Shown here in pieces: positions 8,241 through 26,487 of a stretch of DNA of 64,000 nucleotides. Location of the stretch: positions 62,001 to 126,000 of the forward strand of contig JAMXHR010000012.1 in the NCBI GenBank assembly GCA_023955635.1. The letters run 5' to 3'. The notes under the pieces were generated by a model that made no database searches, was not told where the DNA came from, and worked only from the letters and a program-made list of their open reading frames with translations. This DNA comes from Methanosarcina sp. ERenArc_MAG2. Lineage in GTDB: Archaea > Halobacteriota > Methanosarcinia > Methanosarcinales > Methanosarcinaceae. Made by a program: the position numbers and the translations under genes. Position 1 is the first letter of the stretch, and each line of letters opens with the position of its first letter.

Positions 8241-8756
<516 letters not shown>

Positions 8757-8938: not shown

Positions 8939-9053
8939 TCGTACTTTCTTTATACTGACCTCGCTTTTTTTAGCTGGTCATCTATACCGTCCCATTCAGG
9001 GCTCCCGGGGACCACACACCTCATACCTGCAATTTTTCCTATAACTACTGGCT
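8939..9053 (-). pseudogene. 3' remnant of duplicated ABC ATPase gene
   Basis: This stretch is near-identical to about 18776-18890, the last ~35 codons of the ABC ATPase gene. At about 9052/9053 it joins directly to sequence matching 20566 onward, the start of the permease gene. The permease and most of the ATPase were therefore deleted from this copy of the operon. Confidence 0.75.
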
Positions 9054-9172
9054 TAGCATAATAAAAAAGAGTAGAAGCCCTCCATTATCCAGACGTACTT
9101 TCTCCTCACGTATACTAGGTAATCTTCGGGAACTGCTCCATCGGCAAAATGCACTTGTTTATATCCTCCGTC

Positions 9173-10387
9173 TTATTGTGGAATCTGCTTGAATCCCAGG
9201 TTTTTATACTGTCCGTTCAGATCAGAAAATACCGGTTTTCCAAGGAAAAAGGTATATATCTCGTCGGCTTTGGCTGCAGGGTCTACATCTTCAAACCGCT
9301 CCGGATAAAGCACTTTTCCTACAAAATAAGCGTTTGCAAGCACTGACTCATAGTTGGTGCTGTAGAAATTGTAGGGGATCACTCCATAGACCTTGTTATT
9401 CTTTACAGCTGACAGCCCTGTGAGTGAGGTGTCATTCTTGAGTTCTCCTATGGCTCCTTCATTTCCCAGTTGGAGGGTTCCTATATCGATAAATATGTAC
9501 TCGGGGTTCCAATCTACAAGTGCCTCTTTAGCAATATCCGCATGGTCCGTGCCCATTCCGGCTGCAACATTATTTGCATTTACCCAGAGGAATGGCGGAT
9601 AAGCCGGTTCTGTTGAGATTATTCCATGAGCTCCTGCAATGCTCACACCACCAACATAGGCAGTCTTTCTTTCGGATTCAGGAATGTCTGCTGTTCTGTT
9701 TTCGAGGTCTTGCATTGTAGCGTCGATATAAGCGATTACTTCTTCTGCCCTTTCCTGTTTGCCTACTGCCTCTCCCATTATCCTGAGAGAGCTGTACATT
9801 TCGGTTTTCTCTTTCTCGTTGCTCAAAGATCCATAAGGTAATGAGACCACCGGGATATCGGTTTTACTCTGAAGGGTGTCGGCTTCAGCGGCAGTTGGTG
9901 CCGATGACTGGCCAATCATACTGGTTTTCAGGATAACCTGGGGATTAATTTCAATTATCTTCTCTGGATCATCTTTGCCTCTGGCTTCCCCAATAAGGGG
10001 ATAGTTCTTAAGCTGCGGGTTTGCAAGGACATAGGGGCGGCCTTCTATTTCATTTTTCTTTTTCTCTATGCTGTCAACCCCTACTACGTATTCCTGGGCT
10101 TGCAGGTATACAAGGTAGCGCAGGCATCCCGCCCCAGAGCAAACAACCTTTTCTGCTTTTTCAGGTATGGTGACATTTCTGCCGAACCCGTCTGTAATCG
10201 TAATTTCAGCGGACTTTCCTGAATTACTGCTCATTGTGACTCCAGAAGTCTCTGCTGAAATTGTGCTTTTTGCATTTTCAGGAGATGCAGATTTTTCCGC
10301 GCATCCTGAACTTGCGACCAGGACAGCTGTAATGAGCAGTCCTATGAACATAATTTTTTTAAATTTAATACTCGAGAGTATTTTCAT
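9173..10387 (-). CDS. Metal-chelate/cobalamin-type ABC substrate-binding lipoprotein (copy 1)
   Basis: 404 residues with lipobox (AVLVASSGC), a Ser/Glu-rich linker, and a periplasmic-binding-protein type III fold (BtuF/FepB family, pfam01497): GFGRNVTIPEKAEKVVCSG, an inter-lobe helix, and a C-terminal lobe (WVNANNVAAGMGTDHADIA). The family captures siderophores, cobalamin or heme for FecCD-type importers. The last ~230 residues are almost identical to the copy at 20682-21890, while the N-terminal third has diverged. Its own permease and ATPase have been deleted, so it either serves the intact operon's permease or is an orphan. The upstream region shares TTACATAAA(A/G)TTAACTAAATT with copy 2, suggesting common regulation. 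Confidence 0.85.
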   Translation of the reverse strand: MKILSSIKFKKIMFIGLLITAVLVASSGCAEKSASPENAKSTISAETSGVTMSSNSGKSAEITITDGFGRNVTIPEKAEKVVCSGAGCLRYLVYLQAQEYVVGVDSIEKKKNEIEGRPYVLANPQLKNYPLIGEARGKDDPEKIIEINPQVILKTSMIGQSSAPTAAEADTLQSKTDIPVVSLPYGSLSNEKEKTEMYSSLRIMGEAVGKQERAEEVIAYIDATMQDLENRTADIPESERKTAYVGGVSIAGAHGIISTEPAYPPFLWVNANNVAAGMGTDHADIAKEALVDWNPEYIFIDIGTLQLGNEGAIGELKNDTSLTGLSAVKNNKVYGVIPYNFYSTNYESVLANAYFVGKVLYPERFEDVDPAAKADEIYTFFLGKPVFSDLNGQYKNLGFKQIPQ

Positions 10388-10855
10388 GTTACTTTCCTCT
10401 TATTTTATAAAGAGAGAGTGTTACATAAAATTAACTAAATTAATCCCTTAACGATTAAAGTCTCAACAATTTTCCCGAAATGTACAAATTATTGTGATTT
10501 TTCGGTTAATTTATCATCGGGATAGATAGCATTTAGAGCTGCAGGACTTTTAGAATGGGCTTTATACGTGAAGAAAAGATCATAGATATAGGGAAGCTGA
10601 AGAACGTACTTTTCCATCTCACTGAAAATGAAAGGATCAAAGCTGATTCAGTTTAGGACTTATGCACTTGAGGAACAAAATAAGGCAAGCTCAAGTCTGT
10701 TATTTAGCTTTTGACGTAATTTGAATCGATACATTATTTTCTTCTTTCAATTGCTTAATGCAATATGAAGGCACTCTGGGCTTGTAATTGGTGGAAATGG
10801 AAAATGAAAGACCTTAAATTGCTTATAATGCCTAATTTGTTACGAAGGTGAAACA
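10388..10855. other. Spacer: shared promoter region and repeat end
   Basis: Holds the upstream region of copy 1 of the binding protein (10410-10510), conserved with 21920-22010. A 33-codon open frame at 10555-10656 (MGFIREEKIIDIGKLKNVLF) ends inside a TAGGACTTATGCACTT repeat end at 10653-10668, and may be a gene fragment cut by that element. A TATA-like GCTTATAATG lies at 10821-10830 before the next gene. Confidence 0.4.
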
Positions 10856-11185
10856 TTGACAGAAAAAATCGACATGGATGAAAAGCTCAAAATTATGGCC
10901 GGACAACTTCCCGAAGTAATGGCTGCGCTTTCCGGACTCCATTCTGAAGTTGTTAAAGATGGAGCTTTAAGCGCCAGAACGAAGGAACTCATGATGGTGG
11001 GGATTGCAGTAGCTCTGCGTTGTGAATACTGTCTCTGGAAGCATGTTCCTGAAGCTGTAAAATTGGGGGCAAATCGTGAGGAAATTCTTGAGGCTGTTAG
11101 TACTGCTATAGTGATGGCTGGTGGGCCTGCAGTAGCTTACGGGTCGATAGTTGTTCTTAAGATTCTGGATGAACTGGGCATTTGA
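10856..11185 (+). CDS. Carboxymuconolactone decarboxylase/AhpD-like protein
   Basis: 109 residues from TTG at 10856 with GAAGGTG upstream. All-helical CMD fold with the AhpD-type signature: C56-E-Y-C59-L-W-K-H63. In AhpD relatives this pair is the redox-active site that recycles peroxiredoxins or acts on organic peroxides. A typical single-domain member by length. First gene of a tight three-gene operon with a zinc-binding protein and a small winged-helix protein, which suggests a redox-sensing or stress role. Confidence 0.85.
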   Translation: MTEKIDMDEKLKIMAGQLPEVMAALSGLHSEVVKDGALSARTKELMMVGIAVALRCEYCLWKHVPEAVKLGANREEILEAVSTAIVMAGGPAVAYGSIVVLKILDELGI

Positions 11186-11204
11186 GAAAAGAAGGTGATA
11201 TAAG

Positions 11205-11411
11205 TTGATCGAAGAAAAAATCAGTCTTTGTAAATGCGGGATCTGCGGGTGCGAACTGGAAAGGGAAGATGTTATTGAAGAAGAAGGCAAGACTCTCTGT
11301 GGGGATTGCTTTATCGAAGGTCACCATAGAATTCAGGCTTGTAACCCCTGGGCTGTACGTTCCAAAAAATATTTAGGGAAGAAGCCGGGCTTGAAGGAAC
11401 TGAAGGCTTGA
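11205..11411 (+). CDS. Small zinc-ribbon protein
   Basis: 68 residues from TTG at 11205, with AAGGTGATA upstream. Four or more Cys in paired knuckles: CKCGICGCELE and TLCGDCFIEGHHR. This is a treble-clef/LIM-like zinc site. The basic C-terminus (RSKKYLGKKPGLKELKA) may touch nucleic acid. Its TGA overlaps the next start by four bases (TTGA), so translation is probably coupled. Confidence 0.7.
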   Translation: MIEEKISLCKCGICGCELEREDVIEEEGKTLCGDCFIEGHHRIQACNPWAVRSKKYLGKKPGLKELKA

Positions 11412-11593
11412 CTGAGCTGCAAAAAGCCATTTATGAATTCATTGTCTCTAGTGGTGGAGTAAAAAAGGAAGAAATCGCAAAAAAATTTGGAATATCTTTA
11501 CTGGAAGCAGAGAATCAGTTCGCTCTCCTGAGGCATTGTGAGCTGGTCAAAGGGCAAAAAAGGGCAGATGGAGTGCACCTTGTACCTTTCTGA
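11408..11593 (+). CDS. Small winged-helix DNA-binding protein
   Basis: 61 residues from TTG at 11408, overlapping the previous stop. The sequence folds as one winged helix-turn-helix: QKAIYEFIVSSGGVKKEEIA, recognition helix KFGISLLEAENQFALLRHC, wing VKGQKRADGVHLVPF. Length fits a stand-alone domain. Likely an autoregulator of the three-gene operon; this is inferred from position. Confidence 0.65.
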   Translation: MTELQKAIYEFIVSSGGVKKEEIAKKFGISLLEAENQFALLRHCELVKGQKRADGVHLVPF

Positions 11594-11849
11594 AATAAAT
11601 AGAGAGCGTCTGAAAAGTCCATAATTGTCAATTTTAATATTTATTTTATATATTTTTGGTGCTCCTGTAATATATAGAGGGTTTCGAAAGCACCATCGAG
11701 TTTCTAATCATAAAAAATAGTGCTGAAATTCTTATTGATTGAGAATACAATCGATGTTGATGAGCTCAATTCTAATATATAATTTCAACTAAATATAAAA
11801 AAGACATCCCTTATTTGGTTTAGTTTTTACTTTTTATAACCCTTTGCTT

Positions 11850-12221
11850 TTACTTCTCTTGCTGGATCTCATCGGTTACCTTATTTCCTTCGCAAATAGG
11901 ATTTTTCTTTTCTTTTCCAAAGAAGCTTTTCGTGGTATACACGATCCATTTCCAGTGGAAGATAAGGTGAACAACAGTAAGAGTTGCCATCAGAATTCCG
12001 GCTCTGCTATGTATCCAGATCCATGTAGCCTTCGTTAACCCCAGATACATCAAATGTCCTCCCCTTGGAATTCCTGAAGGCATAAAAAAATACATGAATA
12101 AGCCTGTGCTCGCAACGCTAAAGAACAGGGTTGTTAAAATAAGATCGATTAAATAATTGGTTCTCGTTCTGTTCAGCTTTTCACTTCCACTTTCATTTTT
12201 GTATTGACAATGAAAGTACAT
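11850..12221 (-). CDS. DUF4405-type small membrane protein
   Basis: 123 residues with three predicted membrane helices: LIDLILTTLFFSVASTGLFM, a loop with histidines near IWIHSRAGILMATLTVVHLI, and a last helix ending FHWKWIVY. The spaced helical histidines resemble b-type heme ligands in DUF4405 and related cytochrome b-like proteins. A charged cytoplasmic tail ends the protein. It stands alone on this strand, 0.4 kb from the P-type ATPase gene. Confidence 0.65.
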   Translation of the reverse strand: MYFHCQYKNESGSEKLNRTRTNYLIDLILTTLFFSVASTGLFMYFFMPSGIPRGGHLMYLGLTKATWIWIHSRAGILMATLTVVHLIFHWKWIVYTTKSFFGKEKKNPICEGNKVTDEIQQEK

Positions 12222-12597
12222 GAGAGTATGTTCCTCACATACTCTTTTTTCTTTGTCCTGAACCTTGCGTATTAATTTTTCGGACTATTACCGTGTCCTG
12301 CACGAATAGAATCTATAGCTTTTTCAGGCTCTGTATAAATTCTTTAAATTTAATTTTTATACTATATTTTTACAGCTAATATGTTATAATAATATAGCTC
12401 CTTACTTAATGAAGTCAAATATATTAATCAATTATTTGGTATAGTTTTGTAATATTGGTACATTTACCTCGAATCTTTTGCTTTATTCAATATTCATAAA
12501 TTTATATGCTCATTTTGAATTTTTTGCAACGGAACCCTGATCATGGAAATAGTTGTGAAACTTTACTTATTTGAGGATAAAATTGATTGGGATAGGC
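12222..12597. other. AT-rich spacer
   Basis: Between two convergent-free minus-strand genes; no reading frame or repeat stands out. Confidence 0.4.
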
Positions 12598-14925
12598 TCA
12601 TTGATAACGATGATCCGCTTTGAAACGTTCTAGTATGCTGACCTTGAACATATCATTGACGACAAAGGACCATACAAAATACCATACCATTGCCAACAGT
12701 ACATAACCGGCAGGAATTGGCATCAATCCCGGAATCCCTAATGTTGAGATTATATAAGTTACTACAAGATCTCCGCTTATGGCTGCCATGAGTGTTTTGC
12801 TGGGGATAGACTTCCAGAAATAGCCCTTCTCTCTCACCACAAGTATCGTGAACATGCCTCCGAAGATTAGCATGTCAAAGACAAATGTATGCAACCCTGT
12901 ATGGCTGGTGAGTCTCAAGTGGCTCATCCCAATATATAGTAGCCCGAAAGATTCGGCTACTATCAACATACCCAGCAGTACCGCGACTCTTGCCATCGAT
13001 GCTATATTCCATGACTCGGGTTTCCTGGCAGGCCTGACGTTGTCCGTTGCTATAGCTATGGTAACGAAATCGATCAAAAAAAGTAGCAGGACGATCTCAA
13101 AAGCGCCTATGACGTATTCTCCGGTAATCAGAACTTCGTGTGTGAGGACTACACTGGCAGCACCTTTTGCAATGTCTGTGGCGTTACTCACTGCAATTCC
13201 CACTTCAGCCTGCCTTAATGCAGGGGCATCGTTCACCCCGTCTCCGGTCATGCCGACGATGTGCGCTTTTTTCTGGAAATCTTTTACGATAAGGTACTTA
13301 TCTTCCGGGTAAATTTCGGCAAAGCCGCCGCTTTGCTCGCTAACCTGCGTAGCTTTTTTTGTTGCCGAGCTCTCGATTTCTTTTAGTTCAGCTATCCTGA
13401 TGATTCTCCCTTCGATGCCCGCTTCTTTCGCAATTTCGTTTGCCACCGACAGAGAGTCTCCAGTAAGCATTTTTGTCGTGATTCCGAGTTCTTTAAGCTC
13501 GGCAATCAGCTTCGCAGATTCTGGCCTGGGAGCATCGTAGAGGGCTGCCATACCAACAAGCTCCATCCGAGACCCACTTCTTTCCACCGCAACGGCCAGG
13601 GTTCTGTAGCCCTTTTCAGCATATTCCCCAATTTTCGTCTCCAGAATGGAGATTCTTCCGGCATCATAGCCACATAAAGCTGCCAAGGTCGTTACTGCAC
13701 CCTTGGCCACCTGAATACGCTCATTATTTTTTTGTACGATCGATTCCGTTCTCCGGCTGGAAGGGTCAAACGGCGTGAAGCTGATCTGGTCATACTCGCC
13801 GGTATCAAGCTCTTTCTGCTTGGCGGCCGCAATGAAAGCGATGTCAATAGGATCCTGGTTTGCTTCACTGGATGCAAGTGCTCCGTAAAGAACTACATCT
13901 CCTTTCGTATAGCCATCCATAGCAGTTATGTCAGCTACTGAGAGCTGGTTCAAGGTAATTGTGCCTGTTTTATCTATGCACAATATATCCATCATGGATG
14001 CATCCTGCGAGGCATTGAGTCTTGTCACTAGCACGCCTTTCTTAGCTAGTTCCAGCGATCCCAGGGCCATGGTCACTGTGAACATAGTGGGCAGTGCAAC
14101 GGGGATGGACGAGACCAGCAATATAAGAGCTAACGGCAATATCTCCACAAGGTTAATGCCCCTTATATAAGAGATAACAAAGGCAACGGCAAGTAAAACG
14201 ACTACCAGCGAAAGAAGCCATTTGAGCAGGTTAGTAATAACTTCTTCGACGTACATTCTTGGTCTGGCAATATGAACTAGCTGCGCCGTCCGGCCGAAAT
14301 AAGTTTGCACACCAGTCGATACTACCACACCGGTAGCCTCGCCCTTTCGGATAATTGAGCCAGAGTAGAGAATATCCTCTTTCGTTTTTTCCACTGCAAA
14401 AGATTCTCCAGTCAGTGCCGATTGATCTACCTCCGTATTTTCATCAATGATCTTAACGTCTGCCGGAACAAAATCGCCCTTTCTCACTCTTACTATATCA
14501 CCAGGTACCAGATTTCTTGACTCTATGGTCGACCAGTTTCCATCCCGGAGCACTTTTGCCTTAACATTGAGCTTTCTCTTAAGCGATTCCACTGCCCGGG
14601 AGGATTGCTGCTCCTGGAAAAAGCTAAGCACAGCATTCATGAACAGCAGGAAAGCTATGACGACGAGGTCAACATATCGTCCTAAAAAGTAAGAAAGAGC
14701 TATGGTGATTTCGAGCATCCAGGGCGTCAGACCCCAGAACCGTTTTAAAAAATTAAGCAGAGAATTTTGTTTTTTCTCAGGTACCTCGTTGTAACCTGTC
14801 CTGCGAATTCTCTCTTTAACGCTTTCCATCGATAAGCCTGTTTTCAGGTCAGCACTTAATCGCTTGATAGCTTCCTCGATTGATATCTCTATATACTCTT
14901 CAGTAGGAGATTTCTGCCCAGCCAT
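12598..14925 (-). CDS. Plasma-membrane-type H+-exporting P-type ATPase (type IIIA)
   Basis: 775 residues, the compact length of prokaryotic PMA1-like pumps. In order: actuator domain with LTGES, membrane helices including PVALPTMFTVTMALGS (PVAL, as in proton pumps), phosphorylation site D318 in DKTGTITLNQL, nucleotide-binding KGA, then TGDGVNDAPALRQAEVGIAV, and a last six-helix bundle. It probably exports protons using ATP, or a related cation. The N-terminus (IEEAIKRLSADLKTGLSMES) is the usual cation-ATPase leader. No regulatory partner adjoins. Start ATG at 14925. Confidence 0.9.
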   Translation of the reverse strand: MAGQKSPTEEYIEISIEEAIKRLSADLKTGLSMESVKERIRRTGYNEVPEKKQNSLLNFLKRFWGLTPWMLEITIALSYFLGRYVDLVVIAFLLFMNAVLSFFQEQQSSRAVESLKRKLNVKAKVLRDGNWSTIESRNLVPGDIVRVRKGDFVPADVKIIDENTEVDQSALTGESFAVEKTKEDILYSGSIIRKGEATGVVVSTGVQTYFGRTAQLVHIARPRMYVEEVITNLLKWLLSLVVVLLAVAFVISYIRGINLVEILPLALILLVSSIPVALPTMFTVTMALGSLELAKKGVLVTRLNASQDASMMDILCIDKTGTITLNQLSVADITAMDGYTKGDVVLYGALASSEANQDPIDIAFIAAAKQKELDTGEYDQISFTPFDPSSRRTESIVQKNNERIQVAKGAVTTLAALCGYDAGRISILETKIGEYAEKGYRTLAVAVERSGSRMELVGMAALYDAPRPESAKLIAELKELGITTKMLTGDSLSVANEIAKEAGIEGRIIRIAELKEIESSATKKATQVSEQSGGFAEIYPEDKYLIVKDFQKKAHIVGMTGDGVNDAPALRQAEVGIAVSNATDIAKGAASVVLTHEVLITGEYVIGAFEIVLLLFLIDFVTIAIATDNVRPARKPESWNIASMARVAVLLGMLIVAESFGLLYIGMSHLRLTSHTGLHTFVFDMLIFGGMFTILVVREKGYFWKSIPSKTLMAAISGDLVVTYIISTLGIPGLMPIPAGYVLLAMVWYFVWSFVVNDMFKVSILERFKADHRYQ

Positions 14926-15556
14926 AATATTTTATCCCGAATAACCCCGCCCAAGCAAAATGATATTCAATATTATGTAGAAGCCTATATAAAAATCCCT
15001 ATTTGGCAGATCGACATTATGAATTAGAGTAGTTTTCATGATTGTGTTTTTGGGGTTGTGGGAAAATTAATCGGCTCTGCAGAAATCCTATGAAATATCG
15101 AATTTCCATTAGCTTGCACTGAGTGACCTGATGTATTTTTAATACATCTTTTCAGCTTCAAAAAGCTGATTTAGATAAGTTTTCTACAAAACCGATTAGT
15201 AAACTATTAGGATCAAGATACTTGCTTTTATGTTTGCCAAAAATATCACAGAATTAAGCTTTTCATAAAAAGTTGGACCGCAAGAATAGATCCGATAAGA
15301 ACACATATATTTTGTTATGAATTGTAGAAAATGCTCTATATTTTTTGATGTTCATTGGACCGAATAACACAAAACAAAGAGCACTTATTTTTATCTAACA
15401 TTCAAAGTCAGGCTGGTTCTTGAAAAACTACGGAATCTGGGGATCAATCGTTTATTCGGGATTTGTTCTCAAATATCACTATTAGTAGTATCAATAAAAA
15501 TGTACAACAAATTGCTCACTTTGAAGTAAAGGAAGAGAATTTTCAAGAGGATATTT
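14926..15556. other. Spacer with a small inverted-repeat element
   Basis: Imperfect terminal repeats TAATCGGCTCTGCAGAAA (15068-15085) and inverted TAATCGGTTTTGTAGAAA (15181-15198) bracket about 130 bp, a MITE-like unit. The remainder is AT-rich upstream DNA of the chagasin-like gene; no other gene seen. Confidence 0.45.
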
Positions 15557-16072
15557 ATGAAGAACATTTTGAAAGCCATAGCAATGCTTCTTGTTGTCGT
15601 TGCTGTTGTCTTTGCAGCTGGATGTGCCGGAAAGACAGGCAACACTGAAAATGAAACTCCGGGAAATACCGATCAGTTCGAGCCCATAAATCCGGAAATT
15701 CCCGAAAACGTGACTGAAAACAACACAACTCAAGCTAATGAAACAATGGGAACAGGTCAGGTAGTAACCGAAGCTGATAGAGGAAAAACCATAAGCCTCA
15801 AAAACGGAGAGAATTTTACCCTCAACCTTACTGAAGATCCTACAGCAGGCTATACCTGGAAACTTAACCTGAGCGAGGGGCTCATCATTCTCGACGACGA
15901 ATATGTCGAAGGTCCAAACCCTCAAAACCTTGAAGGTGTCCCCGGAACTCATTCATGGTTAATCGAAGCCGTGTCTTCGGGCAGTCAGAAGGTAACAGGA
16001 ATATATAATCGGTATTGGGAGAACACAACCCTCGTGGAGGAAAACTTTACGCTCAATGTCGATGTTGTCTGA
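15557..16072 (+). CDS. Chagasin-like cysteine protease inhibitor lipoprotein (I42)
   Basis: 171 residues. Lipobox AVVFAAGC, a Glu/Asn/Thr-rich linker of about 45 residues, then an inhibitor I42 domain: loop 1 is DPTAGYTWKL (family NPTTGYxW), loop 2 is near GVPGTHSWL, and loop 3 near the RYW segment (IYNRYWENT). These three loops plug the active-site cleft of papain-like enzymes in characterised chagasins. Membrane anchorage outside the cell suggests protection against external or self cysteine proteases. Start ATG at 15557 behind AGAGGAT. Confidence 0.85.
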   Translation: MKNILKAIAMLLVVVAVVFAAGCAGKTGNTENETPGNTDQFEPINPEIPENVTENNTTQANETMGTGQVVTEADRGKTISLKNGENFTLNLTEDPTAGYTWKLNLSEGLIILDDEYVEGPNPQNLEGVPGTHSWLIEAVSSGSQKVTGIYNRYWENTTLVEENFTLNVDVV

Positions 16073-16122
16073 GAAGCATTTTTACTTTCCAGGCCCGATT
16101 TCTTTTTTTAATTATTTAATGT

Positions 16123-16252
16123 GAGCTCATCCCAAAACCAATTTTGTCCTCTATCGGCAAAAGTTTAAGAACCCGTTTTCACGATCCGAAAATCGATTAA
16201 TTATTCCAAATTCGAGCATCAGAGAAGTAATTTTGAGTTTTGGGATCAGCTC
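16123..16252. repeat. MITE, GAGCTNATCCCAAAAC termini
   Basis: GAGCTCATCCCAAAAC (16123-16138) and inverted GAGCTGATCCCAAAAC (16237-16252) bound a 130-bp non-coding unit. One mismatch in 16. Confidence 0.6.
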
Positions 16253-16285
16253 AACAAAAGTTGTTACCAGGCCCTGTAGGAGCAT

Positions 16286-16960
16286 AGCTGTCACAAAGTG
16301 TAAAGTAATTTCCACATAAATAGAAGTGCCTCAAATTTGATAAGAGGTACTTGGGGTCTGTCTACCAATGGAACAGAAAATCAAAATGAGCATCCTAGAA
16401 ATTTCCAAATTGGGTGTTTTTGCACAACCACCCGCAAAGGCATATTAGTGTATTAGGTATCTGGGGTTAGCTCTGAGTTGACCTTCAATTCCATTATTCA
16501 GGGTAAGTGACATGAAACGTCTGTTTAGGAAGTTAGAAAGCAAGTATAATCTCGATGTTCTTTGAACAAAGAACATGTAGATGATGGAGGTTTTAATCTG
16601 AAAGGCGATATTGACATATTGATCTGCATGTAAAGGAAAAGGTTTAGAGATGAATGATTTATACGAAATTAACTGATCAATTGGATTAAAAATGTAATGG
16701 GAGAATGAAATAGGTTTTTAACCGATGTCTGATGAACACTAATATACCTTTTAGTAACTGTCACAAAATAAATTAGGCATATTTTTCAGAAAGTTCATCT
16801 TCAATTGGTGATGTTGATCTTGAAAATCAAGGCATCCAATTGAAACCTGTGCATAGTTTGTTCTGTGACGACTCCTTAGAGAGATTGGGCAAGAATACCC
16901 TACTTCTATTATAAGCTCTAATTCTGCAATATAGATGTTACTTTGCACTTTGTGACAGCT
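16286..16960. mobile_element. Degenerate inverted-repeat element
   Basis: AGCTGTCACAAAGTGTAAAG (from 16286) is inverted at 16938-16960 with one mismatch over 23 bp. A third related end, ACTGTCACAAAATAAATT, lies at about 16757, so a 200-bp unit may be nested at the right. Reading frames inside are short and interrupted; any transposase has decayed. The TCACAAAATAA core also occurs at the end of the ISAzo13-type element at 42396. Confidence 0.45.
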
Positions 16961-17009
16961 TCGCTGGTACTACCCCAAGATCGGATTCTGTAGTACTTCT
17001 TCTCTGCAA

Positions 17010-18271
17010 TCAGACTCTTTTCTGTGCAAATACGATTCTTGATGCATCCTTCATGTCAAGTGCAGCGAATACTTCAAGCCCGTACTCATTCAGCATTTCT
17101 ATATATTCGGTAAAGGAAACACTGTTCTCAAAGCTATATCCTGATCCTCCTTTTTTCATATCTTCAAAGGTCCAAAGGTTCCAGTCAAGACTAAGAAAAG
17201 AATTGGACTTCATTTTTTCATCAAGAACCTGTCTAGTTACAAAAATGCCTCCCGGGTTTAATGCTTCAGTAATTTTTGGGAGAAGTGAAGGCACTTTTCC
17301 TCCTGGATTAAAAGAAGAGAAGATAAGATCATATCCGCTTCCAATTCCATCTTTAAAGAAGTCTCCAGGAATCACATCTACGTTTGATACTCCATATTTA
17401 TTGATGAAATTTTTTGTTTTTTCCGTTATAGAGGGAAGATCGAAGACGGAAGCCTGGATATTTTCGTTCAGTTTTGCAAAAGCAATAGCATATAGCCCAT
17501 GCCCTCCACCAAGGTCAAGCAACTTATTAATTTTCCTTAAATCAACGTTTTCCATAACGACCCTGACAGTATCCTGAAGCAGTCCACAACGTACGTTTTC
17601 AGCCATGCATGTAATAACTCCACCGAAAAAGGGCTCTTTCTCGAATATTTCAGGTCCTCTCCTCATAATCTGGGTAAGGCGAGCCCAAAGTTCCGTATTC
17701 CTGAGCTTTTCAGCAAGATAATGCTGCTGTGAAAATGGAGAGCTTTCCAAAAATAGGTAGCACTAAGGTCTGATACCATATAGACGGGACCTCCTTTTTC
17801 TGTATCTGTATGTTGGATACTATCTTCAGATCTGTTTTCGCACCCAATTTCGTTTTTTTCCTGCTTCTCTGTGTTCTCTACTACCTTATGTGGATATTCT
17901 TCAAATCTATAAAGAAGTCCAAGGATGCAAAGAGCCTCACAGAAGTGGGGCATAAGAACAGGATTGCAACCAAGTTTGTCAGCCAGAGCTCCTGCTGACA
18001 AAGGAACTTTAAGAGCTTCAAATACTCCTAGCTCAAAGGCAGAAGAAATCAGCCTGTATTCCCTCGAACCTTGAATAGAAGAATCAATAAGTTTAAAAAA
18101 GAGATCGGAATCTACCTTAGGTTTTTGCATCAAGTCAATCACTGTTTCAGTTTTATTTCCTACTTCGTTCTCTATTCTGATTTCCAAATTGTTTTCCACC
18201 CTAGTTTTCTCATTATTTTGTGCTTTTCTTTCCACATCAGGTTCTGGTTTTTCTTGAAATTCATTTTCCAT
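17010..18271 (-). CDS. O-methyltransferase with winged-helix dimerisation domain (frameshifted)
   Basis: Start chosen at 18271 (MENEFQEKPEPD), with GGAGAG six bases upstream. After a charged leader, a winged-helix dimerisation region (LISSAFELGVFEALKVPLSAGALADKLG) is followed, across a break near 17749-17753, by a SAM-dependent class I methyltransferase: LLDLGGGHGLYAIAFAKL (motif I), FSSFNPGGKVPSL, and ALNPGGIFVTRQ. One base added to the run of five T/A at 17749-17753 joins MVSDLSATYF to LESSPFSQQ. Total about 420 residues. The family methylates small O- or N-nucleophiles; the substrate is unknown. Monocistronic. Confidence 0.75.
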
Positions 18272-18389
18272 GCTATCTCTCCTTTTCATTACCTTCTCAT
18301 CTCTTTTTGATCCGTAATGCGTGATTTTGTAATTATATATAATATAAACTATACAAATAAATGAGTAAAAATGCATTAATCCGGCTCAT

Positions 18390-18690: not shown

Positions 18691-18793
18691 AAGATGATTT
18701 AGAACTCCGAATGTCTTTAATGTAAATTTTTGAGTTCAAAACTATAATTCTTTCCTGAATTATGCATTTATTTTGGAATCGATACTACTTTCT

Positions 18794-19597
18794 TTATACT
18801 GGCCTCGCTTTTTTCAGCTGGTCATCTATACCGTCCCATTCAGGACTCCTGGGAACCACACACCTCATACCTGCAATTTCTCCGATAACTACTGGCAGAC
18901 CGTACACCTCTTCGATCATCTCAGACGTGATTACTTCCACTCCTCCATGAGCATGAACTTTTCCTCCCTTCAGAAAGATAAACCGGTCCGCATACCTGAG
19001 AGCCTGATTGAGGTCGTGCATTGTCATCACAGCTGCAATCCTGTGCTCGAGAACAATCTGCCTGATAATGGCAAGGATTTCAACCTGATTCTTCAGGTCG
19101 AGGCTGCTTGTCGGTTCGTCAAGGAGAAGGACTTTTGGTTCCTGTACTAGTGAACGTGCGATTGCAACCTTCTGGAGTTCTCCCCCGCTTATTTCATCGA
19201 TACAAGACAGGCGCAGTTTTTCCATCGAAAGTAACCTGAAAACCGAATCGACTATACGAAGGTCTTTTTCGGTAATATCCCATTTGATATGGGGCCGCCT
19301 TCCGAGCAGGACTGCATCAAAAGCGGTAAGTCTTCCTGTTTCCACATGCTGGGGGACATAGCCAATAAGGCGCGCAATTTCCATTGTTCCAAGGTCGAAC
19401 AGATTTTCTCCATCAATATTGATTGCTCCTCCTTTTGGGTGGAGAATCCTGTTAAGGCATTTTAACAGGGTGGTCTTTCCAACTCCGTTGGGCCCAAGGA
19501 TTGCGACAATCTCTCCGTCCTCTATGGAGAAAGCGATTTTATGAAGGATTTCACGGTTACGATACAAAAACTGGAGTTCTTCTACAGAAAGAATCAT
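18794..19597 (-). CDS. Metal-chelate ABC transporter ATPase (FecE/BtuD type)
   Basis: 267 residues: Walker A GPNGVGKTTL, signature ISGGELQKVAIAR, Walker B VLLLDEPTSSLD, switch His in MTMHDLN. The C-terminal extension (VEVITSEMIEEVYGLPVVI) is typical of the FecE/BtuD/HmuV group. It powers import of a siderophore, heme or corrinoid delivered by the binding protein encoded two genes upstream. Its ATG overlaps the permease stop (ATGA). A remnant of a second copy is at 8939-9053. Confidence 0.9.
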   Translation of the reverse strand: MILSVEELQFLYRNREILHKIAFSIEDGEIVAILGPNGVGKTTLLKCLNRILHPKGGAINIDGENLFDLGTMEIARLIGYVPQHVETGRLTAFDAVLLGRRPHIKWDITEKDLRIVDSVFRLLSMEKLRLSCIDEISGGELQKVAIARSLVQEPKVLLLDEPTSSLDLKNQVEILAIIRQIVLEHRIAAVMTMHDLNQALRYADRFIFLKGGKVHAHGGVEVITSEMIEEVYGLPVVIGEIAGMRCVVPRSPEWDGIDDQLKKARPV

Positions 19598-20663
19598 CTA
19601 CGATATCCCCTAAGAAGCAAATATATGAATGTAGGTGCCCCCATGAAAGCAGTGAGGACTGATACAGGTAGTACATAAGGTGACACTATAAGCCTGGCTG
19701 CAGTATCCGAAACCAGAAGGAGAATTCCTCCAAGCAAGGTGGAACCAGGTATCAGGTATCTCTGGTCGTCCCCTATGACCCGCCTGACCATGTGAGGACA
19801 GATCAGCCCTACGAACCCTATAACTCCAAGAAATGCAACGATCACTGCAGAGACCAGGGCTGCAATTACCATGCCGATTAACCTTATCTTTTCGACATTG
19901 ACACCGAGGCTCTTTGCAGTTTCATCTCCTGCATCTATGGCATTGTAATTCCAGCAGTTGGCAATGAAGAATATAACTGCAAGCAGGACAACTCCTGTCA
20001 TTATCTCAAGTTCCAGCCAGTTAACTCTCCCTACATCTCCAAAAGTCCAGAAGACAACTGCTGCAAGTTGGGTATCGTCAGCAAAGTACTGAAGGAACAT
20101 CGTCCCGGCGGTGAAAAGGGAAGAAAGCGCAACACCTGCAAGCACCATCACCTCGGGTAAAGCTCCCCGGATCCTGGAGATGAGCAGGATTACTCCGGTA
20201 GCCAGGAGGCAAAAAACAAACGCTACCATCGTTGTTAGGTAAGGATTGTTGATTATGACAGCGTCTGCAACCGTGGACTGCATCTTTCCACTCCCCAGGA
20301 TAACAACCGAGAAGGCAGCCCCGAAAGCGCCTGCATTTGAAATTCCAAGGGTAAACGGAGATCCAAGCGGGTTGCGCAGGATCGACTGCATCACTACTCC
20401 TGCTACTGAAAGTCCGGCTCCTGCAACTATCGCAGCCAGGGCTTGAGGTAGGCGGATGTTCCATATAATTGAATCCCATTTTGTAGAGACACTCTGCCCC
20501 AACATTGTTTTCAATACCTCCTCAGGAGGTATTGTTACCGCTCCTACAGAGATCGAGTAGATTAGCATAATAAAAAGGAGTAGAAGCCCCCCATTATCCA
20601 GACGTACTTTCTCCTCACGTATACTAGGTAATCTTCGGGAACTGCTCCATCGGCAAAATGCAC
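19594..20663 (-). CDS. FecCD-family ABC permease (5' end frameshifted)
   Basis: The clean frame begins at ATG 20568 and has 324 residues, nine helices, and the FecCD signatures RLPQALAAIVAGAGLSVAGV and GFVGLICPHMVRR. The first helix would then be cut. A GTG at 20663, eight bases after GGAGGG, starts a frame (VHFADGAVPEDYLVYVRRKY) that joins the permease if one base is added at the C6/G6 run 20587-20592, restoring GGLLLLFIMLIYSISVGAV as helix 1. The truncated copy near 9080 has the same length here with CCCTCC instead of C6, so the break may predate the duplication. Middle gene of the importer operon. Confidence 0.8.
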
Positions 20664-20681
20664 TTGTTTATACCCTCCGTC

Positions 20682-21890
20682 TTATTGTGGAATCTGCTTG
20701 AATCCCAGGTCTTTGTACTGTCCGTTCAGGTCAGAAAATACCGGTTTTCCAAGGAAAAAGGTATATATCTCGTCGGCTTTGGCTGCAGGGTCTACATCTT
20801 CAAACCGCTCCGGATAAAGCACTTTTCCTACAAAATAAGCGTTTGCAAGCACTGACTCATAGTTGGTGCTGTAGAAATTGTAGGGGATCACTCCATAGAC
20901 CTTGTTATTCTTTACAGCTGACAGCCCTGTTAGTGAGGTGTCATTCTTGAGTTCTCCTATGGCTCCTTCATTTCCCAGTTGGAGGGTTCCTATATCGATA
21001 AATATGTACTCGGGGTTCCAATCTACAAGTGCCTCTTTAGCAATATCCGCATGGTCCGTGCCCATTCCGGCTGCAACATTATTTGCATTTACCCAGAGGA
21101 ATGGCGGATAAGCCGGTTCTGTTGAGATTATTCCATGAGCTCCTGCACTGCTAACCCCTCCAATATAAACAGTCTTTCTTTCGGATTCAGGAATGTCTGC
21201 TGTCCTGTTTTCGAGGTCTTGCATTGTAGTGTCGATATAAGCGATTACTTCTTCTGCCCTTTCCTGTTTACCTGTTACTTCACCCATTATCCTGAGGGAG
21301 CTATTCATTTCGGCTCTGTCTTTTTCATTTGTCAAAGACCCATAAGGAAACATGACGACCGGGATGCCGGTTTTACTCTGGAGGGTGTCGGCCTCAGCGG
21401 TATTGGTTGCTGATGACTGGCCAGTTATGCCTGTTTTCAGGACAACCTGGGGGTCGATGGCAATTATCTTTTCGGGATCGTCTTTGCCTCTGAACTCTCC
21501 TATAAGAGGATAGTTCTTAAGTTGCGGGTTTGCAAGGGCATAGGGGCGGCCTTCAACATCTTCTTCTTTCTTCTCCAGACTGTCAACTCCGACTACGCTT
21601 TCTTGAGCCTGCAGGTATACAAGATAGCGCAAGCATCCTGCCCCTGAGCAGACAACTCTTTCGGCATTTTCAGGTATGGTGACATTTCTGCCGAACCCGT
21701 CTGTAATCGTGATCCCAGCCGGCTCTACTGTCGCATGGGTATTTGCAATTTCTGAAGACTCTTCGGCGGGGGCCGAAACTGCCGAATCTTCAACAGATGT
21801 GGATTTATCACTGCAGCCTGAGGTTATTATCAGCGCAGCAATGAGTACTCCTATTAAAATATTTATTTTATTACTATAATCTATTTTCAT
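20682..21890 (-). CDS. Metal-chelate/cobalamin-type ABC substrate-binding lipoprotein (copy 2)
   Basis: 402 residues, lipobox AALIITSGC, linker, then a BtuF/FepB-type fold (GFGRNVTIPENAERVVCSG; WVNANNVAAGMGTDHADIA). First gene of the intact operon binding protein-permease-ATPase. Nearly identical to the protein at 9173-10387 over the C-terminal two thirds, with clear divergence in the N-terminal linker and lobe. Concentrated divergence in one lobe while the other is homogenised points to gene conversion or recent duplication. The substrate (iron chelate, heme or corrinoid) cannot be decided from sequence. Confidence 0.9.
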   Translation of the reverse strand: MKIDYSNKINILIGVLIAALIITSGCSDKSTSVEDSAVSAPAEESSEIANTHATVEPAGITITDGFGRNVTIPENAERVVCSGAGCLRYLVYLQAQESVVGVDSLEKKEEDVEGRPYALANPQLKNYPLIGEFRGKDDPEKIIAIDPQVVLKTGITGQSSATNTAEADTLQSKTGIPVVMFPYGSLTNEKDRAEMNSSLRIMGEVTGKQERAEEVIAYIDTTMQDLENRTADIPESERKTVYIGGVSSAGAHGIISTEPAYPPFLWVNANNVAAGMGTDHADIAKEALVDWNPEYIFIDIGTLQLGNEGAIGELKNDTSLTGLSAVKNNKVYGVIPYNFYSTNYESVLANAYFVGKVLYPERFEDVDPAAKADEIYTFFLGKPVFSDLNGQYKDLGFKQIPQ

Positions 21891-22855
21891 ATTACTTTCC
21901 TCTGATTTGATAGAGCAAACGTCTTACATAAAGTTAACTAAATTTTCTGTTTATTGTTATAATCTCAACAGTTTTCTGAAAATGGTGTGAGCAGTTGTGA
22001 CTTTTAATCAAATTAAAAATAAATTAGCTAAATTAACAGTATACACCTGGAATCATTATTCTTTGAACTACTGAAAACATCCCACATGCCTGCGGCTGTT
22101 TTTTGATTAATTGATGCCTGCAAAAAAGTGGCCCCCACAAAAATTACTCCGGTAAAGTATTAGTTAAATGGTCCTCCCAAACAAATGTGTAAACTAAGGA
22201 TTTACAATGCTTATTTTAGGTAATAGGCATATATTCAGAGTTTTCCCCAACAAAAGTACATTCCAAAAATCGATTTTTACAGAAATAAACTGGATTAAAC
22301 ATTAAAAGTGATAACTGAGTGAGATATGAGCTTTATTTTTTGACAAATCCTATTTATTTGTAATCATGGTATTTTATTCAATTTTCCTCCATAAAAATTC
22401 AATGTTAAATATAAGGATTAATAAGCTTTTAATTTGAAAAATGAACCGATTAATTCCCTTTTAATAACAACTAAACTATTAAAAACATGTATTTCTATTG
22501 AGGAAGCACTAAAACCACATTTAATCTGGTAAATAAGATTCAATAACCCTTAAAAATGGATCATTTTTTGAGGACCCTATAGTTAAAGCATTATGTTGGA
22601 AAATCGCTATACATGGTACGAAGTTGTGCATAAAATTCGTTAACTGATGACCATGGGGTACATTCTAAAGAGAATAGTCTACTTGAGCGAGCAAAGCGAG
22701 TGAAATAGACCGCGTACTCCCGAGGCGCAATTCGGGCGAGGCGCAATTCGGGCGAGGCGCAATTCGGGCGAGGTGCAATTTGGAAGCCTAAACTCTGCTG
22801 GTGCAATTCGAGAAACGAATCGTAGCAAGCAGCAAGGTGTAAAGCATTCGGGTGT
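21891..22855. other. Spacer with conserved promoter region and 16-bp tandem repeats
   Basis: The first 120 bp upstream of the ABC operon resemble the region upstream of copy 1 (TTAACTAAATT block). The rest is AT-rich up to about 22660, then switches to a GC-rich stretch carrying the tandem repeats listed at 22721-22784. No gene recognised. Confidence 0.45.
22721..22784. repeat. Four tandem 16-bp repeats (CGAGGCGCAATTCGGG)
   Basis: Three exact copies (22721-22736, 22737-22752, 22753-22768) and a fourth with three changes (22769-22784). Related fragments (GAGCGAGCAAAGCGAG; GTGCAATTCGAG) flank them. The GC content differs sharply from the AT-rich surroundings. It lies just beyond the 3' end of nadA. 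Confidence 0.8.
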
Positions 22856-23770
22856 TTAGCGGATTTTTACTGCAAGCATTCGGTCAAGCGCCTTTTTTGC
22901 CCTGGCTCTCACATTTTGGGGAACAGTCACTATATGCTGCATTTCATTAAGAGATATCAGGACTTTCTCCAAATTGACCATTTTCATGCTCGGGCAACAG
23001 GTAAACTCTGATATACAGTAATATGTTTTTTCTGGAGCTGCCTTAAGGAGCCCATGGATGAGTCCGCATTCCGTACCTATAATGAACTCGTTTGCAGGAG
23101 AGTTTTTTGCGTACGTTATCATTCCTCGAGTGCTTGCTATGTAGTCTGCGAGTTCGAGGACCTCGGGACGGCACTCGGGATGCGCAATAAATTTGGCTTT
23201 TGGGTGCTTTTCCTTTATTTTCAGTACATCTTCTCTCAGGATCTGGTGATGTGTGGGGCAGTGCCCTTCCCAGGGAATAACTTTTTTGTCAGTCCGAGCT
23301 GCAACATAAGCAGCCAGGTTTTTGTCGGGCACAAAGATTATCTCGTCTGCTTCCAGGGAATTTACTACCTCTACAGCATTGGCGGATGTACAGCAGATAT
23401 AAGACTCGGCCTTGATAGCCGCCGAGCTGTTCACATAGCAGACAACCAGGGCATCAGGATGGTTTTCTTTTTCTCTCTTAAGACCTTCTACACTCACCAT
23501 GTCAGCCATAGGGCAGGTGGCATCGATTTCCGGCAGGAGGACAGTCTTGTCAGGACAGAGAATTGCAGCACTTTCCCCCATAAAGTGGACACCACAAAAC
23601 ACAATAACATCAGCACTCTGACGGACAGCTTCCTGACTCAGGCCGAGAGAGTCTCCTACAAAATCTGCAATGTCCTGAACTTCAGGACGGGAATAATAAT
23701 GAGCAAGAATAACTGCATTTCGTTTTAGCTTGAGTTCTTTGACCCTTTCTATAAGCTCTGCTTGCTGCAT
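22856..23770 (-). CDS. nadA: Quinolinate synthase NadA
   Basis: 304 residues, normal for archaeal NadA. It condenses iminoaspartate with dihydroxyacetone phosphate to quinolinate using a 4Fe-4S cluster. Visible hallmarks: [20 protein letters not shown] at the N-terminus, [32 protein letters not shown] and a C-terminal [14 protein letters not shown]; Cys residues for the cluster sit in the last two segments and in IVFCGVHFM. Start ATG at 23770 with GGTGG upstream and a TATA-like element GAGATATAAATC at 23801. It forms a NAD-synthesis cluster with nadX and nadC. Confidence 0.95.
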
Positions 23771-24248
23771 GGGACCACCGTAAGTTTTTGAAATAAGATC
23801 GAGATATAAATCATAAGATCAAGATAAGCCGATTAGCTCAGCTGACTAACGTAAAGGAATTTAATACAATTTAACACAAAGGCACGTTGAACGTAAAAAG
23901 AGTGCAACAAAGGTAATCTCATCCAGCACGCTCTTTTTGCACACATGCCATCTGCTTCTGAGAACGTACCTGCTTAACTCCCCCGCACTATATATTATTT
24001 GTGAGCCTCCGGTGTTCCTCTTCGGGATCACAGGAAATCGAAGATTTTCCGGGAGTTGCGATGTAATCGCAAAGCACGAGGTCCTTCTTACTGCGCTCGA
24101 GAGGACAAATTTGCAAAGTTACAACTTTTCCATGTCTGACATGCTTTCCGCGGTTATAGAAGATGAAATGAGTTAGTCACAACATTGAAGTCTTATCTAT
24201 AATGAAAAAAATAAGGCGGCAGGCTAGCCGCATAGTCCTCCTGCCACT
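23771..24248. other. Spacer between nadX and nadA
   Basis: Contains the nadA promoter (TATA-like at 23801-23812). A 79-codon open frame at 23937-24176 shows no recognisable protein features. The sequence GCCGATTAGCTCAGCTGA near 23829 resembles a tRNA 5' half but has no matching 3' half. Confidence 0.4.
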
Positions 24249-25064
24249 TTAGGTTCCAAGCTGGACAGGGCTCAGAATCTTATTGAGGGTAGAAATTGCA
24301 GACAGGGCTGCAAGGTAGCTGGTTTTAGGGTTTTCCGGGGAGGGAAGATTTTCTACCCTTGTGAAAAACTTGCCGAATTTTCCTTCAACAGTAATCTCAT
24401 GTACGTTTCTGGACAGGGCAGGGTCAGCAATGACTCTCACTTTTGTCCGCTCAAAGCCTATGCCTGCAAGGCTTATTGTGGCTGCCACATTTACATTTGC
24501 AGGAAATGCTTTTACTGCGTCTGAGGCAGGACCTTCGAAAAGCAGGGTTTCTTTTTCGATCTTGTCGAGTTCGATTCCCAGTGCTGTAACATGTGGAGCC
24601 CCTATGAGCCCTGAAGGCGGTTTTCTGGTAGTAAGGGTAACTGATGAGATTTCCGCTGCTGACGCGGAATTTATTCCGTCTATGCCAACAACTGCGCCTG
24701 AAGGGAAATAGAGCTTGCAGTTATTTTGCTTTGCAAGTCTAAAGAGCCTTTCTCTGAGCTCTTCGTCCGCAAGAGCACCTACGCTGAGAACCATCACATC
24801 GCGCCCCTCTTCAAGGGCCTGCGGTACTATGAACCTGACAGCGTTTTGAGAGGCACTTTCTATAACAAGATCCACGCTACGCAACAATTCTTCGATCTTC
24901 ATACAGGCAGGACTGCACTTTTTCAGGGAAGCTGCAAGTTCAAGGACCTTGCTCTCAGACGAGTCCGAGAGAGCATACAGCTCCGCATTAATAGTCCCGT
25001 CGTCAATAGCCCTGCAAATCTGTCCGCCAATAAATCCGCAACCAATAATTCCTATTTTCAGCAT
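24249..25064 (-). CDS. nadX: L-aspartate dehydrogenase NadX
   Basis: 271 residues from ATG 25064, chosen because CAGGAGA lies directly upstream; an upstream in-frame ATG (25100) lacks a site. Rossmann motif IGIIGCGFIGGQICRAI, then the DUF108 catalytic domain with SGAVVGIDGINSA and KAFPANVNVAATISLAGIG. It oxidises aspartate to iminoaspartate with NAD(P), the substrate of NadA, replacing the oxygen-dependent oxidase NadB, as expected in an anaerobe. Divergent from nadC across a 258-bp promoter region. Confidence 0.93.
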   Translation of the reverse strand: MLKIGIIGCGFIGGQICRAIDDGTINAELYALSDSSESKVLELAASLKKCSPACMKIEELLRSVDLVIESASQNAVRFIVPQALEEGRDVMVLSVGALADEELRERLFRLAKQNNCKLYFPSGAVVGIDGINSASAAEISSVTLTTRKPPSGLIGAPHVTALGIELDKIEKETLLFEGPASDAVKAFPANVNVAATISLAGIGFERTKVRVIADPALSRNVHEITVEGKFGKFFTRVENLPSPENPKTSYLAALSAISTLNKILSPVQLGT

Positions 25065-25240
25065 TCGAGTCTCCTGAGAAATAGTCAATAATTTGATCAT
25101 TATTTATATCATTACTTAGCATCAGGCTTCATAAGCCTGAGGACCGGGATACTGTATTCTGTTCTCTCTCTTTAAATCTTCTGTTGGATTTCTACTCTTT
25201 CCAAAAAAATGTATCCTACTCTCTATCCATTCATAATCCA

Positions 25241-25250
25241 TTTATAAATA
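25241..25250 (+). promoter_or_regulatory. TATA box of nadC
   Basis: TTTATAAATA followed by TACAAAACC; the predicted start near 25272 leaves a leader of about 50 nt. A second weaker CTTATAAATT lies at 25284. Confidence 0.45.
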
Positions 25251-25322
25251 TACAAAACCTGAAAGTAAAAAACACCGTACATCTTATAAATTCGGGAAAC
25301 ATAAAATACCGGGGTAAAAATC

Positions 25323-26147
25323 ATGCTTATCAAAGAAATTGAAAGCTTTATAGAAGAGGATCTGGGGTACGATGATGTTTCATGCACTATTGTGCCTGAC
25401 AGACCTTCAGAAGCCGTTATTTTCACAAAAGAGGACTGTATCATTGCCGGGATTAAAGAAGCCGGATCAATTTTCTGCTATCTTGGGATTCAGGCCGAAA
25501 CCAACCTTAAAGACGGGGACCGCCTCAAAGAAGGAGATGTAATTTTCAGGCTAAAAGGTGGGGCAGTTTCCATTCTCAGGGCAGAAAGGCTTACTCTGAA
25601 TTTCCTCGGGCACCTGAGCGGGATTGCAACCCTTACCCGGGCCTGCATGGATATAGTAAGGCAGAATTCGGAAAATACGAGGGTGGCATGCACCCGAAAA
25701 ACCACTCCAGGCATAAGGAAATTCGAAAAGCTGGCTGTAGTTGCAGGCGGAGGAGATCCCCATAGGTTCAACCTTTCGGACTCAGTGATGATTAAAGACA
25801 ACCATATCAAACTTATGGGAATCGAAGCCGCAATTGAGGCAGCGAAAAAAACCGGCTTCACCCGAAAAATAGAAGTTGAAGTCGAGTCTGCAAACGACGC
25901 TGTAATAGCTGCGAAACTCGGAGCTGATATTATCATGCTAGATAACATGAAGCCCGATGCAGTCCGAGAAACTCTGGAGATACTTAAAGAAAAAGGGCTT
26001 AGAGATCTGGTTATTGTGGAAGCGTCCGGAGGAATTTCTCAGGCAAACCTTGAAGGTTATGCAAAAACAGGGGTGGATATCATATCTATGGGTTCCCTCA
26101 TCCATAAATCCAGATGGATAGACATGAGCCTGGAAATAATCAATTGA
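25323..26147 (+). CDS. nadC: Quinolinate phosphoribosyltransferase NadC
   Basis: 274 residues, full length. It converts quinolinate plus PRPP to nicotinate mononucleotide and CO2. Motifs: EDLGYDDVSC near the start, TLNFLGHLSGIAT, ACTRKTTPGIRKFEKLAV with the PRPP/quinolinate-binding Arg and Lys, HRFNLSDSVMIKDNHI, EVEVESANDA, MLDNMKPD and the C-terminal GVDIISMGSLIHKS. Completes aspartate-to-NaMN together with nadX and nadA. Confidence 0.95.
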   Translation: MLIKEIESFIEEDLGYDDVSCTIVPDRPSEAVIFTKEDCIIAGIKEAGSIFCYLGIQAETNLKDGDRLKEGDVIFRLKGGAVSILRAERLTLNFLGHLSGIATLTRACMDIVRQNSENTRVACTRKTTPGIRKFEKLAVVAGGGDPHRFNLSDSVMIKDNHIKLMGIEAAIEAAKKTGFTRKIEVEVESANDAVIAAKLGADIIMLDNMKPDAVRETLEILKEKGLRDLVIVEASGGISQANLEGYAKTGVDIISMGSLIHKSRWIDMSLEIIN

Positions 26148-26164
26148 AAATCACGAATTAAGAA

Positions 26165-26487
26165 AGCTAAAAAGTGTAGTAGGCTTTTTCCGAGCTGACA
26201 GAGAAATATCTATTAAAACCACAATTCAGAATATCTTTTCTCCGACAGGTCTTCTTTCTTCCACAGATATCTATAAAGAGGCTAGCAGAGCAATTGTCAT
26301 TATCAAAGGTGACCACAAATACCTGAACATAGATGACATCTCAGCTGAAATATAAATTCTATCAAGAGCCGTAGGGCATGTCTTTAAGGGAATAATCATG
26401 CGCATTGGCGCGTATCCTCAGGTCCTGTCCGTACTCACTCTGGAGTCAGCCCGTGACTCCTCTGACATCACCAGCTCTGAAAGTTGA
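26165..26487 (+). pseudogene. C-terminal remnant of a tubulin/FtsZ-like protein
   Basis: Without a start codon, the frame ending at 26355 reads VVGFFRADREISIKTTIQN then GLLSSTDIYKEASRAIVIIK, and a second frame reads ILSRAVGHVFKGIIMRIGAY with PQVLSVLTLESA, stopping at 26487. Order and spacing resemble the C-terminal half of FtsZ/CetZ-like proteins. Truncated at the 5' end and frameshifted; the IS630 element starts 74 bp further on. Moderate recognition only. Confidence 0.4.

Follow-up and report, generated by a model that had tools for sequence, protein, structure and literature searches.

A lone binding protein left by operon collapse in Methanosarcina: a putative accessory to the iron-type ABC importer of a mosaic paralogue

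How did an intact substrate-binding protein gene come to stand without a transporter of its own, on the same contig as a complete operon of the same type, and does it still have a role? The two loci, referred to below as A and B, lie within the 64,000-nucleotide stretch of Methanosarcina sp. ERenArc_MAG2 DNA that was analyzed as a whole (the window). The binding protein of locus A (9173..10387, minus strand) comprises 404 amino acids and is intact, as proposed in the initial annotation, its frame being open over 404 codons. It starts with what we take, from its motif, to be a lipoprotein-type N terminus, and its closest solved structure is 2etv. Permease and ATPase genes are replaced at this locus by two leftovers on the minus strand. 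The first (9053..9172) corresponds to 120 bp of the permease 5' region, with 97.6% identity to locus B over 123 bp, and ends at position 9053. The second (8942..9052) corresponds to 111 bp of the ATPase 3' end, namely, ~35 codons and ~10 bp past the stop, with 94% identity to the same portion of the intact gene. A gene for an rpsO-type ribosomal protein S15 (8298..8756, plus strand; Pfam PF08069 and PF00312) is a landmark that adjoins the intact operon in relatives, as indicated by synteny.

Locus B contains, in a row and on the minus strand, the three genes of a FecCD-type operon, of which locus A has leftovers only. These genes encode a second binding protein of 402 amino acids (20682..21890), a FecCD permease (19594..20568; PF01032, E 8e-88), whose N terminus is in doubt, and an ATPase (18794..19597; PF00005). 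Both binding proteins contain a Peripla_BP_2 domain scoring above the curated cut-off (PF01497, E 1.6e-19 for A and 2.9e-18 for B), and no NCBIfam model reached its cut-off for either of them. The block separating the two loci (10856..18376) comprises open reading frames (ORFs) for a carboxymuconolactone decarboxylase-like protein, a short ORF, a P-type ATPase, another small ORF, and a methyltransferase-like gene in two frames, for which all family matches are below curated cut-offs.

Comparison of the two loci by blastn returned two blocks, one aligning A 10482-9053 with B 21984-20562 (86% identity, E 0) and the other aligning A 9052-8942 with B 18896-18786 (94% identity, E 1e-44). These blocks and their E values indicate an exact junction at 9052/9053 that does not result from chance. 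The 1,665 bp of B located between the blocks (18897-20561) are entirely missing from A, and the two sides of the deletion join do not share a single base. The ATPase tail had been described as fused to the permease start at this position. The junction holds in the DNA, but a fusion protein does not, since the permease leftover ends in a stop there and the frame crossing the junction has no start before it. A plasmid search of the sequence returned no match.

The proposal that a complete operon collapsed to a lone binding protein was supported by the leftovers of both lost genes and by the presence of an intact operon at the corresponding address in 20 of 24 annotated loci of relatives (genomes designated by G numbers, the genome under study being G000). 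In these 20 loci, the end of the ATPase gene faces rpsO/S15 at a distance of 0.2 to 1.8 kb, as does the leftover of A. Thus, A occupies the genus-typical place, and B lies at the far side. The four other loci consist of a broken remnant beside S15 in G002, a contig ending inside the ATPase gene, another G014 locus, and a contig with S15 and no operon. The methyltransferase-like gene found here between A and B is directly upstream of the binding-protein gene in G012 and G009. In G002 (L094, 10799-11689), the N terminus of a binding protein is located beside ATPase residues 82-264, adjoining S15, and the genome contains no close copy elsewhere; judging from this sequence, G002 has independently lost the system save for the remnant. 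In G001 (L092, 12577-12702), an ATPase fragment is present upstream of the first tandem binding-protein gene, at a distance of about 1.2 kb, and is perhaps the leftover of another copy of the operon.

The quality of the assembly deserves attention, since A and B might be the product of a mis-joined or collapsed repeat and ordinary genes in this sequence are split between frames. Split ORFs accounted for 4/10 of the genes matched from one G001 stretch, 3/14 of those from G006, and 0/12 of those from the G001 stretch surrounding the operon, in comparison to 0/9, 0/11, and 0/12 in controls between relatives, which suggests indel errors in the assembly. The genes at 29608-30473 (presumably prenyltransferase-like), 35087-36036, 50208-52023, and 17010-18376 are each divided in this manner and have a single frame in relatives. 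Against an artefact, the two loci, each with flanks of its own, are located some 11.5 kb from each other on a single contig, the flank of A toward S15 matches that of relatives, and single-base differences between A and B occur along the shared stretch, leftovers included. On account of the distinct flanks and of the bases at which A departs from B, assembly collapse is unlikely, and we give artefacts of this type, mis-joining included, very little credence.

Frame integrity also bears on the permease of B. In comparison to all of the 20 relatives to which this gene was aligned, the usual GTG start (about position 20663) is one base out of frame, the shift mapping to the run of C residues at 20587-20592 or its vicinity. 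The permease leftover of A carries the same one-base shift (about 9080-9090). Because genes split between frames are common in this assembly, the shift in B may be a sequencing error, the alternative being an old frameshift shared by the two loci. If the frameshift is real, the genome may not encode a full pump. A programmed frameshift was also considered, as the shift recurs in the leftover, but it is no more than a possibility, given the frequent frame splits and the homopolymers of four or five bases next to those inspected. The dN/dS ratios to G012 (0.07 for the permease and 0.12 for the ATPase) indicate strong constraint on both proteins of B, which are sisters of their G012 counterparts (FastTree support of 0.996 and 0.971, respectively). 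The genome encodes no other permease close to this one, the next being at 46% identity and the others at 40 to 46%. Copy A is therefore a binding protein whose own permease is absent in a genome that encodes one close permease elsewhere.

The relationship between the two binding-protein genes varies along their length. A and B differ at 165 of 1,203 aligned bases, and the distribution is not uniform: the strongest single break in identity, at aligned base 177, the end of a very divergent linker, was reached by none of 1,000 shuffles. The step between the N-lobe and the C-lobe is visible in dS values and not as the strongest break. At the protein level, 69 of the 74 residue differences and gaps are located in residues 1-208 and 5 in residues 209-404, in agreement with the divergence of the N-lobe and linker originally noted. 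The near identity ascribed to the C-terminal two thirds of the proteins was correct in kind but too broad in extent, as close agreement begins only at about codon 208, and ~99% DNA identity only at about codon 251. Four codons differ among the last 154, of which one changes a residue, on the side of B. Polarization of the A/B differences with G012 and G009 likewise left few beyond codon 250. Agreement continues past the binding-protein gene through the permease start and the ATPase tail, indicating that the 3' half of the operon, and not a portion of one gene alone, is shared.

Silent sites were compared over six segments bounded by alignment columns 0, 60, 120, 210, 245, 330, and 413. The dS values between A and B were 0.91, 0.70, 0.62, 0.21, 0.07, and 0.06, versus 0.69, 1.22, 0.30, 0.07, 0.75, and 0.28 between A and G012. 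At these sites, A is closer to G012 than to B in columns 120-210, whereas the C-lobes of A and B are far nearer each other than that of A is to G012. Columns 60-120 reverse the order (A dS of 0.70 to B and 1.22 to G012) and depart from this simple picture. Residues 208-237 of copy A display unusually few silent differences among A, B, and G012 (dS of about 0.1) in comparison to most neighboring segments. In the tree of the N-part, A grouped with the single copies of G012 and G009 (support of 98/91), and the test of A and B as one clade, named after earlier trees had been inspected, gave a p-AU of only 0.034 against it. In the C-part tree, A and B formed a clade (100/98), and the groupings of A with G012 (p-AU of 0.0008) and of A with G012 and G009 (0.005) were rejected.

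A simple recent duplication of the whole operon, after which one of the two N-lobes diverged quickly under selection for another ligand, would account for the near identity of the C-lobe and flanks. It is highly improbable, as silent sites of the N-part differ strongly (dS of 0.62 to 0.91), an effect for which selection on the protein offers no explanation, and as A clusters in the N-part tree with two other species instead of B. The view that A is a copy of the operon at 18776-21890 was accurate with respect to the C-lobe and flank, which were recently common to both loci, but not beyond, since the address typical of the genus is that of A and since the N-parts appear older than the split of A from the two relatives. 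In particular, the N-lobe of B looks older than that split. Gene conversion, also put forward in the initial annotation, is compatible with both trees, the C-parts of the paralogues being each other's closest and the N-part of A being closest to G012 and G009, but it is inseparable from unequal crossing-over or from duplication of the 3' half. The C-lobe and flank were shared recently by one of these three routes.

The distribution of the system was surveyed in 30 genomes of the genus, G000 included. A binding protein was detected at an E value of 1e-60 or better in 26 of them, and exactly one permease of at least 84% identity was found in 26, the two sets being identical; G014 has a second permease at 70%. 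Two or three binding proteins of at least 69% identity are encoded by 8 of the 26 genomes (G000, G001, G013, G014, G016, G021, G039, and G040), and in 6 of these 8 the binding-protein genes are in tandem before the single permease gene. We looked in relatives for the reduced state found at A, and the outcome was mixed. Behind the first tandem binding-protein gene, a clear, degenerate leftover of the permease start is present in G021 (about 130 bp, E 3e-18), and weak short matches were obtained in G013 (47-56 bp, E 2e-4) and G040 (E 5e-4 and 0.008), but none in G001, G016, or either spacer of G039. It may therefore not be the first time in the genus that a permease was lost while the binding protein before it was retained.

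The tandem proteins form an alpha class, distal to the permease, and a beta class. These classes have no residue in common at 16 alignment columns, 12 of which are located between residues 110 and 189, in the N-lobe. Some of these columns are at or just after strands of the structural model (156 and 182), and strand ends such as these would face the cargo cleft in this fold. B is alpha-like in its N-lobe, with the alpha state at residues 121, 135, 146, 156, 165, 167, and 182 and not at residues 110, 112, 157, 158, and 189. FastTree and the class residues favored a simple orthologue of the alpha class; this assignment was not retained, because the careful N-part tree grouped B with G014_x (87/86), outside both classes. 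That placement is weakly held, leaving the origin of B unsure.

A motif of 22 to 24 bases, ending about 30 bases before the start codon, precedes both binding-protein genes (10418..10441 for A and 21921..21944 for B, minus strand). A search of the whole G000 genome with up to 3 mismatches returned these two sites only, indicating that the box is private to the two genes. With a slightly shorter version of the box and up to 2 mismatches, 36 sites were found in 26 of the 30 genomes, in comparison to 1 site for the reversed control pattern. All but two of the 36 sites (G008:C32 and G003:C15) are found immediately before a binding-protein gene from the set of 36 with at least 69% identity. Two genes lack a site, namely, the second one of G014 and the one of G003, just upstream of which the contig ends. 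The four genomes with no binding-protein gene had no site. The box may be a promoter core, an operator, or both.

Could copy A be a dying leftover? The operon would have become redundant once its 3' half had been copied to B, the pump would have been deleted, and the binding protein would have yet to decay. The event linking A and B is recent, as the C-lobe dS (0.06 to 0.07) and leftovers that differ from B by 2 to 6% leave little time, and G002, with its binding-protein/ATPase remnant beside S15, illustrates loss of the system. Nevertheless, the reading frame of A remains open in a seemingly indel-rich assembly, the box before it has been kept, and several relatives keep extra binding proteins that have no permease of their own. 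Decay in progress is unlikely, if less so than the alternatives dismissed above. The evidence for selection on A after its loss is itself thin, because the event is recent and few codons differ past codon 251. In favor of a continuing role, the frame has been kept while the leftovers diverged.

In our best reading, copy A remains functional and acts as an accessory binding protein to the permease and ATPase of B. We assign a probability of about 0.6 to the whole explanation, in which an older second binding protein gained the 3' half of the operon, A lost its pump, and A serves the pump of B. The ancestor would have contained a complete operon for a TM0189/YiuA-like, iron-type ABC importer beside rpsO (now A) and a second, older binding-protein gene toward what we assume to be nad genes, which now adjoin B. 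Once the lineage had separated from the nearest relatives compared, both loci would have come to share the 3' half of the operon, defined as the last ~150 codons of the binding protein, the permease, the ATPase, and about 10 bp. In the simplest history, the operon at A would have been the donor, and the older gene at B would thereby have acquired an A-type C-lobe behind its N-lobe together with a full transporter. A would then have lost the 1,665 bp comprising the permease gene and most of the ATPase gene. Still expressed from its own box, A would be exported, anchored as a lipoprotein, and capture its cargo before docking on the B permease for import, by means of a C-lobe that is almost the same in both proteins. 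One pump would then take cargo from two N-lobe variants. Docking by the equal C-lobe alone is a simplification, since both lobes of such binding proteins touch the permease.

The nature of the cargo was approached through the fold. The best sequence and fold match of copy A is TM0189 of Thermotoga maritima (PDB 2etv), with a phmmer E value of 2e-78 and, for a model of A with a mean pLDDT of only 64 and several loops under 50, too low to resolve the pocket, a VIA-align Z of 26.4 (rmsd of 3.1 over 296 residues). TM0189 is annotated only as the putative binding protein of an Fe(III) ABC transporter, and A differs from it in having no linked permease. The iron-type binding protein YiuA (6b2x and 6b2y; Yersinia ruckeri 9hrj, 9hrp, 9if3, and 9ht5) has the same fold (Z of about 18), although its identity to A is about 20%, and the titles of its structures report complexes with iron and iron chelates. 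By analogy, the cargo of A is probably an iron chelate. Among the papers listed by literature searches on TM0189 and on the importer of methanogens, no account of the cargo was found, and those listed for the paralogues showed nothing on them. Selection of A and B for different ligands, as originally suggested, is plausible in view of the clustering of class-separating residues in the N-lobe.

Within this lobe, a stretch of ~90 codons (about residues 114-202 of A) stands out, with alpha/beta dS values of at least 1.09 in all six tandem genomes, although some flanking segments are equally high (1.16 and 1.18 before the stretch and 1.11 at the end in G001; 1.24 at the end in G039). Circular-shift checks gave 2/350, 11/350, 14/350, 22/350, and 25/349 in five genomes, 84/349 in G001, 66/351 for the A/B pair, and 117 to 349 in nine orthologue controls, values to be read with the knowledge that the stretch was picked after the data had been seen and that the genomes are related. 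The hypothesis that the entire C-lobe has evolved in concert in the six tandem genomes was rejected, as the careful C-part tree separates the alpha and beta classes and only patches are homogenized. We tentatively propose, as a possibility against which we still lean, that the Methanosarcina importer is modular: one permease and ATPase would work with one to three binding proteins having private boxes, sequence exchange would patch the flanks and spare the N-lobe stretch that sets the cargo, and the permease could switch partners, as at the present loci.

Parallels exist in other systems. In Synechococcus WH8102, a single Pst transporter is accompanied by three PstS homologues that differ in affinity (PMC10846223), i.e., one importer with several related binding proteins, as proposed here. 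That system concerns phosphate in a bacterium, and the available part of the report describes neither a deletion scar nor an N-lobe/C-lobe mosaic. The methanogen genes mtrA-1 and mtrA-2 are, like A and B, old paralogues of which one part has been homogenized and another has remained distinct, but they are methyltransferase genes (PMC4632066). Concerted evolution in prokaryotes has been treated more generally (PMC6053082), in a paper whose main text does not contain the terms "ABC transporter" and "binding protein." The situation at A is a neat instance of an arrangement that is common, and it is ordinary in kind. It offers a recent, readable case for the origin of extra binding proteins, with the pump shed and the binding protein and its upstream box kept. 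The genus-wide box and the distinct N-lobe stretch provide a handle on differences in cargo or affinity between tandem binding proteins and on their control.

Two further features of the region beyond B were recorded. Short direct repeats, identified by eye, are present at 22680-22850, between the upstream region of copy B and the next gene. The adjacent block of three genes (22856-26457), which we take to be nadA, an aspartate dehydrogenase gene, and nadC, is inverted in comparison to relatives, having been turned around relative to G001 and G006, and a transposase-like ORF, also recognized by eye, is located near one of its ends (27054-27653).
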